A program made the translations under genes and the position numbers. A stretch of 64,000 nt of DNA. Source: Salarchaeum japonicum. GTDB taxonomy: Archaea > Halobacteriota > Halobacteria > Halobacteriales > Halobacteriaceae. How positions within the stretch are numbered: the first letter of the stretch is position 1; the number at the start of each line of letters is the position of its first letter. Shown here in pieces: positions 6,854 through 60,658 of the stretch. The notes beneath the pieces were generated by a model that was not told where the DNA came from, searched no databases, and worked only from the letters and a program-made list of their open reading frames with translations. The stretch spans positions 1,369,564-1,433,563 of the forward strand of contig NZ_CP085324.1 of NCBI RefSeq assembly GCF_020614395.1, given 5' to 3'.

Positions 6854-6930
6854 ACTCGACGGACTCGGACGCGCGAGGATATAATTTTCGACTGAGAGCG
6901 CCGCTACCGGCTGTTTACGCCGACTGTGGC

Positions 6931-6996
6931 GGACGTACGACTATATAGGTGGACGTACGGCTCGTTCGAGTATCGAGGGTACGGAGCCGTACGTCC
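6931..6996. promoter_or_regulatory. Inverted repeat and third half-site upstream of the pst operon
   Basis: GGACGTACGGCTC at 6951-6963 and its exact reverse complement GAGCCGTACGTCC at 6984-6996 form a perfect 13-base inverted repeat with a 20-base spacer. A third copy of the core GGACGTACG sits at 6931-6939, so the three cores spread over two to three helical turns. The site is 40-100 bases above the pstS TATA box, where a phosphate-responsive activator would bind. It also lies between two divergent genes, so it could act on the minus-strand gene instead. Confidence 0.6.
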
Positions 6997-7010
6997 GGGT
7001 ACGGGCACGA

Positions 7011-7039
7011 ATAGTAGACTATTATAAAGGGTCTTTATA
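7011..7039 (+). promoter_or_regulatory. pstS core promoter
   Basis: CTTTATAC at 7033-7040 is centred about 26 bases before the pstS ATG (7062), the spacing of a leaderless haloarchaeal TATA box. A second TATA-like element, TTATAAAG, lies at 7023-7030. A short inverted repeat ATAGT-AG-ACTAT (7011-7022) sits immediately upstream, where the TFB-recognition element or a repressor could bind. Confidence 0.55.
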
Positions 7040-7061
7040 CGGTACTCCAACCACTCAGGTG

Positions 7062-8243
7062 ATGCCTCAGGACTCAACGGGCACGGGAGCGGGCGTATCA
7101 CGGCGTAAGTTCATCGCGGCGACGGGCGCGGTCGGCGCGGCCGGCCTCGCCGGCTGTCAGACGGAGAGTTCGGGCGACGACACCACTCAGACGACGGAGA
7201 GCGGGAACGGCGACCAGAACACCCAGCAGACGACGCAGTCGTCCGGCAACGACACGTCGATGCTGACCGCCGAGGGGTCGTCCACGGTCTACCCCATCGC
7301 GAACACGGGGAGTTCGTACTGGAACTCGAACCCGCCGAACGACGACGGCGAGTACTGGGGGTCGAACGAGGAGTCCACCGTCCCCGGCTGGGACGACCTC
7401 GGAAGCCCCGACATGCGCCTCGCGGACTACTTCGCGAGCCTCTACGGCTTCGAGCCGACCGGCCAGCAGGCGACGCCGCCGTTCATGACGTCCATCGGCC
7501 TCAGCCACTCCGGCACCGGCTGTCAGTCCGTCTGGGACGGCCTCGTGGACATCGGGAACTCCTCCGGCCCCATCACGGCCGAACTCGGGTGGAGCGAGTC
7601 ACAGGCCGAGGAGCGCGTCGTCGACCACGTCGTCGGCCGCGACGGACAGCCGGTCGTCGTCAGTAGCGACATCTACGACGCGGGCGTCACCGAACTCACG
7701 GGCGAGGAGATCCGCCAGATCTACCAGAACGAGGTGTCGAACTGGAGCGAACTCGGCGGCCCCGACCAGGACATCTACGTCATCGGGCGCGCCGAGGGCT
7801 CGGGGACGGACACGTCGTTCCGCCTGAACATGCTCGGGAGCGCGGACGCGCCGATGCCGGGCGTGAACACGCGGTTCGGCCAGAACCAGCAGGTCGCGCA
7901 GGCCGTCTCGCAGAACGAGGGCGCGATCGCGTACATGGCGCTCGCGTTCACCGGCCCCGAGGTTCAGCCGATCGCCATCAACTTCGAGGGCACGACGTAC
8001 GTGCCCGACCGGGACGCGGAACACACCATCTTCGACAGCGACTACCCGCTGAACCGCGACCTCCACCAGTACACGAAGATAACGGACGACACGCCGAACG
8101 GCACGGACCTGCGGGAGGCGGCGTTCATCAACATGTTCCTCACGTCCTTCGGGCAGACGGTGTTCGTCGAGGGGAACAACTACATCCCGCTCCCGACGAA
8201 GGACATCGAGTCCGAGAAGGCGAAACTGCCCGAGCAGGCCTGA
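7062..8243 (+). CDS. pstS: Phosphate ABC transporter substrate-binding lipoprotein PstS
   Basis: 393 residues. The N terminus has a Tat signal (SRRKFIAATG) followed by a lipobox ending LAGC, so export is folded and Tat-dependent with a lipid anchor on the Cys. An acidic Thr/Gln/Ser linker follows. The binding domain begins with the phosphate-contact motif EGSSTVYPIA near residue 69. Later parts GRAEGSGTDTSFRLNM and QNEGAIAYMAL are the conserved second phosphate loop and hinge region of PstS. The first gene of the pst operon. GTG at 7059 directly precedes ATG 7062 in frame; I chose the ATG. Confidence 0.95.
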   Translation: MPQDSTGTGAGVSRRKFIAATGAVGAAGLAGCQTESSGDDTTQTTESGNGDQNTQQTTQSSGNDTSMLTAEGSSTVYPIANTGSSYWNSNPPNDDGEYWGSNEESTVPGWDDLGSPDMRLADYFASLYGFEPTGQQATPPFMTSIGLSHSGTGCQSVWDGLVDIGNSSGPITAELGWSESQAEERVVDHVVGRDGQPVVVSSDIYDAGVTELTGEEIRQIYQNEVSNWSELGGPDQDIYVIGRAEGSGTDTSFRLNMLGSADAPMPGVNTRFGQNQQVAQAVSQNEGAIAYMALAFTGPEVQPIAINFEGTTYVPDRDAEHTIFDSDYPLNRDLHQYTKITDDTPNGTDLREAAFINMFLTSFGQTVFVEGNNYIPLPTKDIESEKAKLPEQA

Positions 8244-8276: not shown

Positions 8277-9407
8277 ATGTCATCAGTAACAGACCGTGTG
8301 GCGGCCGTCTCGGCGGCGGCGTCCCGCGCGCTCCGGCGGAGCCGGGAGTTCGTCGCGGACACCGACCCCGTCGCGCTGGCCGTCGTCGGTATCATGACCG
8401 TTTCGTTGCTCGGCGCGCTCGTCGGGTTCCTCGCCGTCTCCGCGCTGACGGCGGTGCCGTTCGTCGTGTTCCTCGCGAGCGCGGCGTACGGCTGGGTGTT
8501 CCACCAGGAGCTCACGGCGCGCGCGCTGACGTTCGCGATGACCGCATCGACGATACTGATACTCCTGCTCATCATCGTCTTCATCTTCGCCGAGTCGATT
8601 CCGGTGATTCGGTACGAGAGCGCCACCGTGTTCGGCGTGAGCGTCCCCGGCCTCCGGCTGTTCGTCCAGCCGAACTGGGACGCGGTGTCGCCGCCGATTC
8701 GGTACTCGATGGTGCCGATGATTCACGGCACCGTGATGGTCACGGTGATAGCGACGCTGGTCGCGGCCCCGCTCGGGGTCGCGGCGGCGCTCTTCCTCTC
8801 CGAAATCGCGCCGCCGGCCGTCCGCGAGACCGTGAAGCCCGGCGTGGAAATCCTCGCCGGCATCCCCTCCATCGTGTACGGCTTCATCGGGTTCACGCTC
8901 CTCGGGCCGTGGGCGTCCGATAAGTTCGACATCCTCGGCCAGGGCACCTACCTGTTCGTCGGTATCGTCGTCGGCCTGATGGCGCTCCCGACCGTGGTGT
9001 CCGTCGCGGAGGACGCGCTCGCGGCCGTGCCGGAGTCGATGAAGTCCGGGTCGCTCGCCATCGGCACGACCGACTGGCAGACCATGACGAGCATCACGCT
9101 GCCCGCCGCGATTTCGGGCGTGTCCGCCGCCGTTCTGCTCGGCGTCGGGCGCGCAATCGGGGAGACGATGGCGGCGACCGTGATGCTCCGCGGCGTCCCC
9201 CGGCTCACCGACCCCATCTACAACGTCTTCTACGGCCAGGAGACGCTCACGTCCCTCATCGCGCGGAACTACGGGGAGGCCGACGGCCTCCAGATGGACG
9301 CGCTGTTCGTCGCGGGCGTCATCCTCTTCGTGACCGTGCTCGCCATCTCCATCGTCTCCCAGTACATCGAGGCGCGGATGCGGCACAAGCTCGGGGGTGA
9401 CGCCTGA
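8277..9407 (+). CDS. pstC: Phosphate ABC transporter permease PstC
   Basis: 376 residues, with about eight hydrophobic segments. The core six-helix MetI-like permease domain starts near residue 145 (STGTV-like SMVPMIHGTVMVTV). The EAA loop, which contacts the ATPase, reads PESMKSGSLAIGTTDWQTM near residue 255. The N-terminal ~95 residues add two further helices. In-frame TTG at 8274 precedes ATG 8277; ATG is preferred. The 33 bases after pstS carry no evident terminator, so it is cotranscribed. It pairs with PstA to form the inner-membrane phosphate channel. Confidence 0.93.
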   Translation: MSSVTDRVAAVSAAASRALRRSREFVADTDPVALAVVGIMTVSLLGALVGFLAVSALTAVPFVVFLASAAYGWVFHQELTARALTFAMTASTILILLLIIVFIFAESIPVIRYESATVFGVSVPGLRLFVQPNWDAVSPPIRYSMVPMIHGTVMVTVIATLVAAPLGVAAALFLSEIAPPAVRETVKPGVEILAGIPSIVYGFIGFTLLGPWASDKFDILGQGTYLFVGIVVGLMALPTVVSVAEDALAAVPESMKSGSLAIGTTDWQTMTSITLPAAISGVSAAVLLGVGRAIGETMAATVMLRGVPRLTDPIYNVFYGQETLTSLIARNYGEADGLQMDALFVAGVILFVTVLAISIVSQYIEARMRHKLGGDA

Positions 9408-11068
9408 TGGCGACCGAATCCCGCACGCCGCTCGTCGCGGGCGACACGTCCGGGACTGACGCCGTCGCCGCCGTCGCGGTCGGGGTCGCCGCCGCCGTGT
9501 TCGCGACCGCGGCCGCCGCGCTGTTCGGTCTCGTCAGCCTCACCGACACCGTGTTCGGTATCGACGTGCTCGCCGCGCTCGGCGGCCTGCTCGTCGCGCT
9601 CGGCCTCGCGGTTATCGCGTTCGGCGTCGGCTCCCGGCTCGGCTACGTCGAGACCCAGCCGCGGCCGAGCGCGGGCATCGTCGCCGGCGTCGCGTTCACC
9701 GCCGTCTGGTTCGTCGCGGGCGGCCTCGTCGCGTCCCAGACGCTCGGTTTCGGCACCGTCGGCTGGCTCGCCGTCGCGTTCGCGGTCGGCGCGGTCGCGT
9801 TCGCCGTCACCACGTTCACTCGGGAAGACATCGGCTCGACGCTCCCCGCGGGCGCGATAACCGTCTTCGCGGGCGTCGTCTTCCTCCTCGGCGTCATCGA
9901 CGCGTCGTGGGCGTGGAACCTCGGCTGGGAGCAGAAAGCGTCGTTCACGGCGGCGGTCGTGATTCCGTCCCTGGCGTTGTTCTGCGCGCTCGTCTCCGGA
10001 TGGGCGTCCGCGAAAGCATACGGCGGGTTCGGCGCGCGCGGCCGGCACGCCGGCGCGTACCTCCTCATCTACCTGAACGCGCTCGCCATCATCACCGTCC
10101 TGTTCGGCCTCGTCGCGTTCACCGCGTTCAAGGGCTTCCCCGGGCTCACGCGCGGGTTCGAGGTCGGACTCGGCGTCGGCCCGACGACCACCATCGCGTT
10201 CTTCCTCCACCTCCCCTTCCTCGACGTCGCGCCCGGCTTCGTCTTCAGCTTCGACTGGCCGGTCTCTCTGCCGTTCGTGATGAACGGCGTCGGCCTGCTC
10301 AACGACTTCAACGGCGTGCTCCCCGCCATCGTCGGCACCGTCTGGCTCGTCGTCGGCGCGTCGGTGTTCGCCATCCCGCTCGGCGTCGGCGCGGCCGTCT
10401 TCCTCACCGAGTACGCCGAACGCGGCCGGTTCACCCAGGTGGTGGAGATAGCGACGAACGGCCTCTGGAGCACGCCCAGCATCGTGTTCGGTCTGTTCGG
10501 GTTCGCGTTCCTCGTCCCGCGGTTCGGCGGGAACAAGAGCCTGCTCGCCGGGATGCTCACGCTCGGGTTCATGCTCCTCCCCCTGGTGCTCATCACGAGC
10601 CGGGAAGCGATGCTCGCCGTGCCGGACGAGTACCGTGACGCGAGCGCCGCGCTCGGCGTCTCCCGGTGGCAGACCATCAAGAGCGTCGTCATCCCGGCGT
10701 CGATACCCGGCATCGTCACCGGCGTCATCCTCGGCGTCGGCCGCATCGCCGGCGAAACCGCACCCCTGCTGTTGACGATGGCTGGCGGGACGTTCGTCCC
10801 GGGCGGCCAGACCGTCGACGTCATCGGCGGGTTCGCGTTCCAGGCGACGCCGCCGTTCGTCACGAACCCCGAGCTCCTGCAGGCGACCAGCGCGCTCCCC
10901 TACCAGCTCTGGGCGCTCATCGCCGCGGGCGTCGGCGTCTCCAGCAACGTCGGGGACGGCGAGGCGTTCAAGTGGGCGACCGCGCTCGTCCTGCTCGTCG
11001 TCGTCCTCGGCTTCTACGCCATCGGCATCGCGATGCGACAGTACTTCCGGCGGAAGATTCAGTCATGA
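9407..11068 (+). CDS. pstA: Phosphate ABC transporter permease PstA, long form
   Basis: 553 residues, nearly twice the ~290 of bacterial PstA. The last ~260 residues form the MetI-like permease, with EAA loop [19 protein letters not shown] near residue 405 and the typical [16 protein letters not shown] helix. The first ~250 residues hold about six additional membrane helices with short loops. This N-terminal block is usual for haloarchaeal PstA and is not a frameshift product, because the frame and composition are continuous. ATG 9407 overlaps the pstC TGA by one base and the stop overlaps pstB, so coupling is tight. Confidence 0.92.
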
Positions 11069-11961
11069 GCGAAACAACACAGCCCACGACCGACCAGCCC
11101 CTCGAAACGACGAGCGGCGAAACCACCGAAGCAGTACAGGACGAGTGGCGCAACCACAGTTTCGACGGCGCGACCAAGCTCGCCGTCGAAGACCTCGACG
11201 TCCACTACGGCGAGGAGCACGCGCTCAAGAACATCTCCATCGACATCCCCGAGCAGTCCGTCACCGCCCTCATCGGGCCGTCGGGCTGCGGGAAATCGAC
11301 GTTCCTCCGGTGTCTCAACCGCATGAACGACCGCATCAAGGCCGCCAAAATCGACGGGTCGGTGGAACTCGACGGCGAGGAACTCTACCAGGACGGCGTG
11401 AACCTCGTCGAGCTCCGCAAACGCGTGGGGATGGTGTTCCAGCAACCGAACCCGTTCCCGAAGTCGATTCGGGACAACGTCAGTTACGGCCCCCGCAAGC
11501 ACGGCGACCTGGACACGAGCCTGTTCTCGCGGTTGCTCGGGCGGAGCGACGAGGCGGCGGAAAACGAGCTCGTGGAGCGGGCGCTCCGGCAGGCGGCGCT
11601 CTGGGAGGAGGTCTCGGGCAGACTGGACGACAACGCGCTCGGGCTCTCGGGCGGCCAACAACAGCGCCTCTGCATCGCGCGGACGCTGGCAACGGATCCG
11701 GAAGTGATTCTGATGGACGAACCGGCGTCGGCGCTCGACCCCATCGCCACCGCCAAAATCGAAGACCTCATCGACGAGCTCTCCGAGCAGTACACGGTCG
11801 TCATCGTCACCCACAACATGCAGCAGGCCGCCCGGATTTCCGACCAGACGGCGGTCTTCCTCACGGGCGGCGAACTCGTCGAGTACGGCGACACCGACCA
11901 GATCTTCGAGAACCCCGAGAGCCAGCGCGTCGAAGACTACATCAGCGGGAAATTCGGATGA
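11065..11961 (+). CDS. pstB: Phosphate ABC transporter ATP-binding protein PstB
   Basis: 298 residues. A ~40-residue acidic N-terminal extension precedes the ATPase. Motifs in order: Walker [10 protein letters not shown] near residue 73, Q-loop [13 protein letters not shown], signature [10 protein letters not shown] near 193, Walker [14 protein letters not shown], switch [21 protein letters not shown] after Walker A is diagnostic for PstB within the ABC importers. Start ATG overlaps the pstA stop (ATGA), and its own stop overlaps phoU the same way. Confidence 0.96.
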
Positions 11962-12635
11962 CTCGGGAGAGCTACCAGGAGGAACTCGACGACCTCCGGC
12001 GGGACGTGCGGGAGATGGGCGACCTCGTCCTCGGGCGGCTGGACGACGCGCTGGCGTGCCTCGCGGGCGACGCGGGCGACGACCTGGCGCGCGAGGTCGT
12101 CCGGGGCGACGACGAGGTGAACGAGCGCTACCTCGCGCTCGAAGACGCCTGCATCGACCTCATCGCGCTCCAACAGCCGGTCGCGGGCGACCTCCGGTTC
12201 GTCGTCGCGTCCTTCAAGATACTCACCGACCTCGAACGCGTCGCCGACCTCGCCGTGAACCTCGCGGAGTACTCGCTCGCCGCGTCGGACATCGCGGTGC
12301 CGACCGACGACCTCTCGACCATCGGCGAGCGAGCGCGCGACCTCGTGGAACGCGCGCTCGACGCGTACATCGACACCGACCCCGTCGAGTGTCGCGCCAT
12401 CGCGGACGCGGACGACGAAATCGACGCGCTGTGCGCGCGGGCGAACGAGACCGTGGTTCGCGACCTCATCGAACGCGAGGCGGACGCGGACGCGTGGACG
12501 GTCGAGACCCTCATGGACGACGTGTCCCGCGTCCTGCTGACGGTTCGCGACCTCGAACGCATCGGCGACCACGCCGTGAACGTCGCGGCGCGAACGCTCT
12601 ACATGACCGAGAACGACCCCGAACTCATCTACTGA
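11958..12635 (+). CDS. phoU: Phosphate signalling protein PhoU
   Basis: 225 residues, all helical: two PhoU three-helix repeats. The conserved metal-binding signatures E/DxxxD are visible in [16 protein letters not shown] near residue 93 and [19 protein letters not shown] near 195. PhoU proteins in bacteria dampen Pst transport and the Pho response by contacting PstB. Archaea usually lack PhoR/PhoB, so here the partner is probably PstB itself, the following AbrB-PhoU protein, or both. Start overlaps the pstB stop; the stop overlaps the next start by one base. Confidence 0.93.
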
Positions 12636-13651
12636 TGGAGTCCCGGAAAGTCCAGTCCGTCGGCGGCGGCACGCTCACGGTCTCCCTCCCCCGCGAGTGG
12701 GCGGACGCGGCCGGCCTCGCGGCCGGGGACTCCGTGGACTTGCACGCGCACCTCGACGGCGTGCTCGTCGTCCAACCGGGCGCGAGCGAGGACGACGACA
12801 CCAGCCACGTCACCGTTCACGCGGAGGACGAAGACCGCCTCGGTACGGCCGTTCGTGCCGCGTACACCGCCGGATACAGGACGATAGCGCTCGACGCGTC
12901 CGGCGGCGTGACGACGGGCCAGCGGCGCGCGCTCGACCGCGCGGTGCGCGGCCTCCCCGGCCTGAACGTCGTGGAGGAGGGCGGCGACGAACTGCGGTTG
13001 CGGTACGTGCTCGACCCGGCGGAGGTGTCGGTGTCGCAGTCGGTGCGCCAGCTGGCGTTCGTCGCGCGGAGCGTCGGTCGGGACGCCGCGGACGCACTCG
13101 CGGACGGCCGCGATGTCTCGTTCGACGACCGGACGAGTCAGGCGAGTCGGTTGAGCGCGATGGTCGAACGGCACTTCTCGCGCGCGCTCTCCCGGCTGGA
13201 CGAGGTGGACGCGCTCGGGCTGACGCGCCCGCGGCTGGCGGAACTCCGGACGACGGCGCACGAACTCCGCGAGGTCACGGGGGACGCGGCCCGGCTCGCG
13301 TCCGTCGCCGGGGACGTGGACGCCAAGAGCGCGTCCACCCGGGAGGTCGTCGCGCTCGCGGGAACCGCCCGGGAGGCGGTGGACGGCGCGACCCGGAGCG
13401 TGCTCGGGGACGCGGACGCGACCGCCGCGCACGACGCGCTCGCGACCGTTCGCGGCCTCCGCGACGACCTCGACGCCCTCGACCGGCGGTTGTTCGAGGC
13501 GGCGGACGCGGACTACCGGCTCGTCCGCGCGGCGGACGCCGTGCGCGACATCGGCGGGCGCGCGGAGCGCATCGCGTCGGTCGGCGTTCAGCGCGGCCTC
13601 CGGGACGGCGCGTCGGTCGCGCCGACGGACGCGCCGGGGCCGCCGCAGTAG
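12635..13651 (+). CDS. phoU2: AbrB/SpoVT-domain PhoU-like regulator
   Basis: 338 residues. Residues 1-47 form an AbrB/SpoVT swapped-hairpin DNA-binding domain ([20 protein letters not shown], then GLAAGDSVDLH). The remainder is a divergent PhoU-like helical region, with FVARSVGRDAADALADGRDV and SAMVERHFSRALSRLDEVD where the helices repeat. The fusion of a DNA-binding domain and a phosphate-signalling domain, as last gene of the pst operon, marks it as the likely transcription factor of the local Pho response. It is probably autoregulatory at the repeat near 6951-6996. The DNA target is inferred, not shown. Confidence 0.88.
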   Translation: MESRKVQSVGGGTLTVSLPREWADAAGLAAGDSVDLHAHLDGVLVVQPGASEDDDTSHVTVHAEDEDRLGTAVRAAYTAGYRTIALDASGGVTTGQRRALDRAVRGLPGLNVVEEGGDELRLRYVLDPAEVSVSQSVRQLAFVARSVGRDAADALADGRDVSFDDRTSQASRLSAMVERHFSRALSRLDEVDALGLTRPRLAELRTTAHELREVTGDAARLASVAGDVDAKSASTREVVALAGTAREAVDGATRSVLGDADATAAHDALATVRGLRDDLDALDRRLFEAADADYRLVRAADAVRDIGGRAERIASVGVQRGLRDGASVAPTDAPGPPQ

Positions 13652-43248: not shown

Positions 43249-43499
43249 CTCGATAGCCGTCCTGAACGCCGCCCCCTATATAGATGTTACTCCTGCCGGG
43301 TGGCGTGAAGGGCGGCGCAGTCGTGCGATTACACTCGGGTAGTGGTGAGTGCAACTCGACTTGGGTTCGCGCGACAGGACGCGGTAGGCGGGGGCTGGCT
43401 TCGGCGGTGGTGAGCGCTAAGTTATGCGAATACTCGGCGTAACGTCCGCACCGCGGGGCGAACCACAAGACACGACTACCCGGCGCGAAATCTCTACGT
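43249..43499. other. Gap of 251 bases, little seen
   Basis: The left end holds the TATA box of the 54-residue gene (CTATATAG, 43276-43283). The rest has no tRNA-like or repeat structure that I can see and no likely ORF. The right end should contain the promoter of the UPF0212 gene, for which I find no convincing TATA box. Confidence 0.5.
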
Positions 43500-59602: not shown

Positions 59603-60658
59603 CTACTTCGTCTCGTACCAGTTAAGGAAACGCTCGATACCTTCCTCGAAGTCAACCTCGGGTTCCCAGTCGAGTTTGTTCCGAGCGCGGGAGATATCGG
59701 AGACGTACACTTTCTGGTCGCCTTCACGCCACTCGTCAAAGCTGATGTCCGTTCGCTTCCCTGTTTTCTCTTCGAGAAGGTCCAAGAACTCCAGGAGACT
59801 AGTTGTGTTGTTCTTCCCGCCACCGATGTTGTAGACGGCTGGCTTCCCACTGGGGTTGGAGAGGAATGCGTCGTATGCGCGGATGAGATCCTTCACGTAG
59901 AGCACGTCCCGAACCTGCTTCCCATCCCCGAATATCGTGAGAGGTTCGTCCCGGAGCGTGCTGAGAGCGAAGTGCGCGACCCATCCCTGATCCTCGTTTC
60001 CGAACTGGCGCGTCCCGTAGATGCAACTCATCCGGAACGCGGCGGCGTCAACCTCGTTCCGCTCCGCGTAGTCCTGCACGTAGAGGTCGGCTGCCAGTTT
60101 CGAAACACCGTACGGTGTGTGTTCGCAGTCGTCGATGGAGAGCGATTCCGGAACACCTTCTACGTACTCCGGGTCGTCGTACCAGTACCGGGTTTCCTCT
60201 TCACGTACGGGAATCTCGTTCACGTTATCACCGTACACCTTGTTCGTCGATGCGATAACAATTGCAGGGTCGCTCTCGGCCGTACGTGCAGCTTCGAGGA
60301 CGTTGAACGTCCCCTCTGCGTTGACCTCAAAGTCAGTCCGAGGATCCTGAATAGAGGCGGTTACTGCCACCTGACCGGCAGTATGAACGATGGCATCGTG
60401 TCCCTCAACGATGTCTTCCAGCCGGTTTTCGTCACGGATATCTGCTTCAACGAGAGTGACCTCAGGATAGTTCTCCGAAATATGCTCCCAGTTGTATGCC
60501 GCCGTGTTTCGACTTTCATCCGCGGTTTCGAGCGTCTCAACGCGACTGAGGTTGTCGAGCGCAGTGACATCCGCGCCTCGTTCGGCGTAGTATTCGACAG
60601 CATGGCTGCCGACGAAACCCGCACCACCAGTCACGAGAACTCGGTCTAGAGAGGTCAT
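59603..60658 (-). CDS. NAD-dependent epimerase/dehydratase, UDP-sugar
   Basis: 351 residues. VLVTGGAGFVGSHAVEYYAERG at the start (cited by core GGAGFVGSHAVEYY), ASTNKVYGDNVNEIPV near residue 136, YGVSKLAADLYVQDYAE near 186 with Tyr-x-x-x-Lys, and GDGKQVRDVLYVKDLIRAY near 247. The longer loop between the last two (CEHTPYGVSK, ETRYWYDDPEYVEG) resembles CDP-paratose/UDP-galacturonate-type epimerases. It probably makes one of the glycan sugars. GC content here is lower than in the rest of the window. Confidence 0.85.
   Translation of the reverse strand: MTSLDRVLVTGGAGFVGSHAVEYYAERGADVTALDNLSRVETLETADESRNTAAYNWEHISENYPEVTLVEADIRDENRLEDIVEGHDAIVHTAGQVAVTASIQDPRTDFEVNAEGTFNVLEAARTAESDPAIVIASTNKVYGDNVNEIPVREEETRYWYDDPEYVEGVPESLSIDDCEHTPYGVSKLAADLYVQDYAERNEVDAAAFRMSCIYGTRQFGNEDQGWVAHFALSTLRDEPLTIFGDGKQVRDVLYVKDLIRAYDAFLSNPSGKPAVYNIGGGKNNTTSLLEFLDLLEEKTGKRTDISFDEWREGDQKVYVSDISRARNKLDWEPEVDFEEGIERFLNWYETK

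Follow-up and report, generated by a model that had tools for sequence, protein, structure and literature searches.

How archaea sense phosphate and respond to it without PhoR-PhoB is little understood, and the pst operon of Salarchaeum japonicum raises the question of which sites upstream of pstS, and which protein, could serve such a response. The window analyzed here, i.e., the whole stretch of 64,000 nucleotides, contains this operon in the order pstS-pstC-pstA-pstB-phoU-AbrB/PhoU (Table 1), its control region being flanked on the other side by a divergent minus-strand gene (ATG 6853) without a Pfam match. The sequence-only reading of this locus had proposed a perfect 13-base inverted repeat with a third half-site as the operator, the AbrB-PhoU fusion encoded last in the operon as the protein binding it, and thus a Pho-type circuit without PhoR/PhoB. 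The lack of PhoB was supported, as a search of the S. japonicum genome for the PhoB-type DNA-binding domain (PF00486) remained empty, with positive controls in 10 genomes. Likewise, the last gene indeed encodes an AbrB-type DNA-binding domain joined to a PhoU fold. Its product (class 1) matches PF04014 with 35.0 bits (cut-off 24.7) and, having no PF01895 match itself, is 34% identical to a class-2 protein which features this domain. In addition, its predicted C-terminal bundle matches the PhoU structures 4q25/1t72, the N-terminal part being poorly modelled. For residues 60-125, Foldseek aligned ~71-75 columns with small SepF-like domains (E about 0.5-1), which suggests that a middle domain separates the AbrB part from the PhoU part.

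Table 1. Features of the pst locus of S. japonicum, with positions counted from the first letter of the window.
Feature	Position	Strand	Remarks
Third half-site GGACGTACG	6931..6939	+	GTAC core 6935-6938; GTAC changed to GTAT in the same-genus genome
Distal element CTATATAG	6941..6948	.	-121 from pstS ATG, between half-sites 1 and 2; in 22/56 promoters, position quantised in 10-bp steps
Left arm of inverted repeat	6951..6963	+	GTAC core 6955-6958; same-genus genome: core kept, 3/13 arm bases changed
Three GTAC cores (6979, 6989, 6999)	6979..7002	.	start-to-start exactly 10 bp; 10/20-bp GTAC pairs overrepresented across promoters
Right arm of inverted repeat	6984..6996	-	GTAC core 6989-6992; same-genus genome: core kept, 3/13 arm bases changed
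Proximal box TATTATAAAGGGTCTTTATA	7020..7039	+	7+7 dyad (TATAAAG/CTTTATA), overlaps predicted BRE/TATA; at -42, unchanged in the same-genus genome; -42 fixed across the order
pstS, phosphate-binding protein	7062..8243	+	Tat/lipobox-like signal; start ATG 7062
pstC, permease	8277..9407	+	
pstA, permease	9407..11068	+	
pstB, ATPase	11065..11961	+	
phoU, stand-alone PhoU protein	11958..12635	+	
AbrB-PhoU, class 1	12635..13651	+	N-terminal MazE/AbrB domain, C-terminal PhoU-like helical bundle

The inverted repeat itself is present as described, with the left arm GGACGTACGGCTC, its exact reverse complement after a 20-base spacer and the additional half-site further upstream, and it lies in the pst control region at a distance of 66-111 bases from the pstS ATG. 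Within the 64-kb window, 6951-6963/6984-6996 stands alone: no other perfect inverted repeat reaches 13 bases when spacers of up to 40 are allowed. Dinucleotide shuffles produced ~0.2 such repeats per 64 kb (5 in 25 shuffles) and, for the 208-base intergenic region alone, one in 3000 shuffles; thus, what makes the repeat notable is its location, and over the entire window it would not stand out. Taken by itself, the half-site carries little information since CGTACG is common in this genome (56 occurrences in the window, with 47 GGACGTACGNC sites genome-wide). Directly adjoining half-site 1, the sequence CTGTTTACGCCGA(C/T)TGTGGCGGA (6911-6933) is nearly unchanged in the same-genus genome.

A specific operator of the AbrB-PhoU protein would agree with the linkage of site and regulator gene and with the rarity of a perfect 13-base dyad in the intergenic region, and a dimer, as formed by AbrB-type proteins, would suit a dyad site. 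Still, the dyad did not prove to be conserved. In the only other genome of the genus (pstS 84%, AbrB-PhoU 85% identity), 6 of the 13 pairs no longer match, without any compensating change, although the regulator is kept; the CGTACG cores survive. In the same comparison, 43 of the 208 bases of the whole region are changed, but none of the 8 bases of CTATATAG and none of the 20 bases at 7020-7039. Moreover, the pattern GGACGTACG-N4..34-CGTACGTCC matches a single site in the S. japonicum genome and was encountered in 7 of 392 haloarchaeal genomes, with no other pst promoter found among the matches. The exact dyad was thus rejected as a conserved operator. As GTAC is, besides, not tied to the in-operon AbrB-PhoU gene (see below), it is quite unlikely that dyad and third half-site form a specific operator of this protein. 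CGTACG dyads elsewhere in the genome give no evidence of a regulon either: 54 pairs were found at 8-38 bp, counted irrespective of coding status, and CGTACG is common through TAC codons.

An RNA or DNA hairpin, or a functionless chance repeat, is even less probable. The ~0.2 repeats expected per shuffled window would fit the latter, but transcription is predicted to start, leaderless, near 7060 and would thus include neither arm, and the GTAC cores with their spacing recur across the order. The inverted repeat is rather the GTAC pair 6955/6989 of a larger array, with flanks happening to match in S. japonicum.

This array became apparent from pstS upstream regions aligned on the ATG, which comprised 30 loci, the second pstS of S. 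japonicum and loci of Haloferax, Halobellus, Halorubrum, Halorussus, Halosimplex, Haloarcula, and others. Dropping pairs with >70% ungapped identity resulted in a non-redundant set of 56 pst1-type promoters. The control region in the window features GTAC cores at 6935, 6955, 6979, 6989, and 6999. Taking all 55 regions together, the enrichment of GTAC is mild (100 vs. 79), the pst1-type promoters with the -42 box described below showing 65 instead of 38.9±5.2 expected occurrences and the larger non-redundant pst1-type set 110 instead of 65.4±7.2. In contrast, GTAC counts equalled expectation in the remaining pstS promoters (12 vs. 12.0) and were not raised in promoters of AbrB-PhoU genes outside class 3 (20 vs. 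22.7). GTAC pairs at exactly 10 or 20 bp were counted 16 times, compared to 1.0 in shuffles or 2.65 in position permutations (p<2e-4), this and the following p-value being optimistic even after thinning because the promoters share descent and thinning was based on ungapped identity. The most common place of GTAC is 3 bases before the proximal box (19 in 56 promoters), followed by that 10 bp further up (9). Hence, the core of the proposed half-sites represents a real element, enriched and helically spaced in pst1-type promoters. Its supposed pairing with the in-operon AbrB-PhoU gene was not confirmed, since GTAC counts among pst1-type promoters are similar with or without that gene; neither GTAC nor the proximal box tracks the in-operon class-1 AbrB-PhoU. 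Elsewhere in the window, a second cluster of five GTAC within ~110 bases was observed at 60110-60235.

The proximal box was identified as TATTATAAA(C)-NNN-TTTA, starting exactly 42 bp before the pstS ATG. The form TATTATAAAC-NNN-TTTA or a close variant is located at exactly -42 in the large majority of the aligned upstream regions, and an unbiased pattern scan of 146 genomes for TATTATAAACNNNTTTA revealed 24 exact matches, of which 22 precede a pstS-type ATG by 42 bp. In the S. japonicum genome, the box occurs as a single copy at pst1 with up to one mismatch allowed, ruling out a wider regulon via this element in this organism. Its interpretation as a strict dyad was left as suggestive, the arms covarying only partly (C-G 22, C-C 22, G-C 5).

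The distal element CTATATAG, a full palindrome with little conserved flank, was found in 22 of the 56 non-redundant pst1-type promoters (0.35 expected), and the shorter TATATAG in 36 (1.5 expected). The best match per promoter, assessed in 48 of the 56, is situated at -83, -91/-92, -111/-113, -120 to -122, -130 to -133, -152, or -161, corresponding to a phase coherence of R=0.88 at a 10-bp period (p<2e-4, for promoters related by descent). An independent scan of 392 genomes for CTATATAG-N55..85-ATTATAAA, which allowed any gap from 55 to 85, gave 21 matches with gaps of solely 62 (3), 64, 72 or 73 (14), 82 (2), and 84; pst promoters accounted for 18 of the 21, and the reversed control pattern reached only about ten matches. 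Three genomes of a single genus carry CTATATAG and ATTATAAA with the same helical spacing (gap 73) and have no pstS downstream of them. Five genomes of one genus feature CTATATAG at -111 together with another proximal sequence (TATTATAGTTCATATAG), and lack the GTAC array and an in-operon class-1 AbrB-PhoU. The S. japonicum genome contains five copies of CTATATAG, two of them at its two pst promoters (pst1 and pst2). Of the others, one looks coding, one represents a basal TATA (window 43276) and one (genome ~228100) is placed between the mcm gene and a gene for a secreted nuclease-like protein, 51 bp before the ATG of the latter, where a link to phosphate scavenging is possible.

As TATATAG is TATA-like, it could be a basal element instead of an operator, and CTATATAG might serve as TATA box to an additional pst promoter located upstream, which would yield a leadered transcript and leave the GTAC sites as downstream DNA. 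The copy at 43276-43283, in basal TATA position before a leaderless gene, fits this explanation, which nevertheless does not account for a distance to the downstream box that keeps to 10-bp steps in different families, nor would a full palindrome with little conserved flank be expected from it; it is considered unlikely. The sequence-only reading thus stood insofar as its repeat is part of a phased phosphate control array, and fell short insofar as the most conserved elements, CTATATAG and the TATTATAAAC box, were missed within the very stretch it covered.

With regard to the protein, AbrB-PhoU genes were found in all 59 genomes searched, with one to five per genome. S. japonicum possesses three: class 1 in the pst operon, class 2 divergent from the second pstS and class 3 alone. 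The promoters of 59 such genes were read; 39 of the 49 outside class 3 carry TATATA at -50 to -44, ~20 bp upstream of the TATA box, and none of the 10 class-3 genes does so at this position. Class-2 genes are usually divergent from pstS-like genes and carry TATATA in their own promoter. Accordingly, TATATA/CTATATAG, and not the inverted repeat, is the element joining pst1, pst2, and the AbrB-PhoU genes, and it is a better operator candidate than GTAC, which is untied to the in-operon gene. Among phosphate genes, the carriers of these elements appear to be pst and AbrB-PhoU genes. Since GTAC is unenriched in AbrB-PhoU promoters, one protein need not bind both TATATA and GTAC. Two regulators are therefore conceivable, in which case AbrB-PhoU would occupy CTATATAG and possibly also the proximal box, leaving the GTAC array to an unrelated transcription factor. 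The restriction of GTAC enrichment to pst1-type promoters, with TATATA shared by AbrB-PhoU and pst promoters, speaks for this division, as do the pst promoters of one genus that keep CTATATAG without GTAC. However, the second regulator is hypothetical and the 10-bp spacing is common to GTAC and the other elements, so that this arrangement is possible but doubtful.

The survey demonstrates three elements, their specificity for pst promoters and their helical phasing. The preferred explanation, held with slightly better than even confidence, is that 6931-7039 constitutes a phosphate-responsive pst1 control region of three site types in whole-turn spacing, with an AbrB-PhoU-type protein as the putative reader of CTATATAG. 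In this arrangement, the proximal box at -42 overlaps or abuts BRE/TATA, the GTAC cores are one or two helical turns apart, and the distal CTATATAG is separated from the proximal box by complete helical turns, in 10-bp steps. As all sites keep to the same face of the helix, bound regulator molecules probably touch each other as well as the TBP/TFB complex at the core promoter. The reader of CTATATAG would most likely be a class-2 AbrB-PhoU protein, whose PhoU part would sense the state of the transporter or of phosphate, and pst would accordingly be expressed under phosphate scarcity. A positive role is favoured because pho-boxes are described as essential for upregulation in Halobacterium salinarum (PMC6560208); repression would be compatible, too, with a proximal box that overlaps BRE/TATA. 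A more far-reaching form of this reading is put forward tentatively: AbrB-PhoU as a one-protein sensor and regulator may act from a remote CTATATAG at whole turns from the core promoter, with the phased GTAC array in between. If true, the whole order would possess an archaeal counterpart of PhoR-PhoB, with control over distance resembling that of enhancers or looping repressors. The pst-specific, order-wide, and helically phased sites offer exact bases and spacings to test, along with the best candidate protein class.

Compared to the bacterial PhoR-PhoB Pho regulon, the locus likewise features a pst operon under presumed phosphate control and the presence of PhoU, but differs in that no PhoB-type DNA-binding domain was found in the genome; tandem 7-base CTGTCAT-like repeats with an 11-bp period are absent from 6854-7061 by reading. 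The haloarchaeal bop (Bat) and gvp (GvpE) promoters possess one upstream activator site close to BRE. They are similar in having an upstream site next to BRE/TATA which acts on the core promoter, whereas the pst array includes a remote palindrome at whole-turn distances and would clearly exemplify remote control at an archaeal promoter that depends on the face of the helix.

Among haloarchaeal systems, Haloferax PhoU2 (HVO_2374) is a PhoU protein with an N-terminal DNA-binding domain, encoded beside pstS1 and predicted to regulate phosphate uptake (PMC6267482). It resembles the present case as an AbrB-PhoU-type protein beside pst; in S. japonicum, however, class 1 ends the pst operon and the class-2 homologue is divergent from the second pstS. 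Another close system is that of H. salinarum, where both pst promoters (pst1 and pst2) were described to carry pho-boxes essential for upregulation, and PhoU-type regulators acting on the pho-boxes of haloarchaeal pst promoters were already reported (PMC6560208, citing Furtwaengler et al. 2010). Pho-boxes in haloarchaeal pst promoters are thus already known and the present array is a variant of them: according to that citing description, the two have in common cis-elements in pst promoters, PhoU-type regulators (putative for the present array) and a need, here presumed, for upregulation, and CTATATAG is, like a pho-box, common to both pst promoters of the genome. This likeness refers to the citing description and not to the box sequence, and part of the elements described here may match the published H. 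salinarum pho-box; the present analysis contributes the helical phasing, the array of GTAC cores, and the survey across the order.
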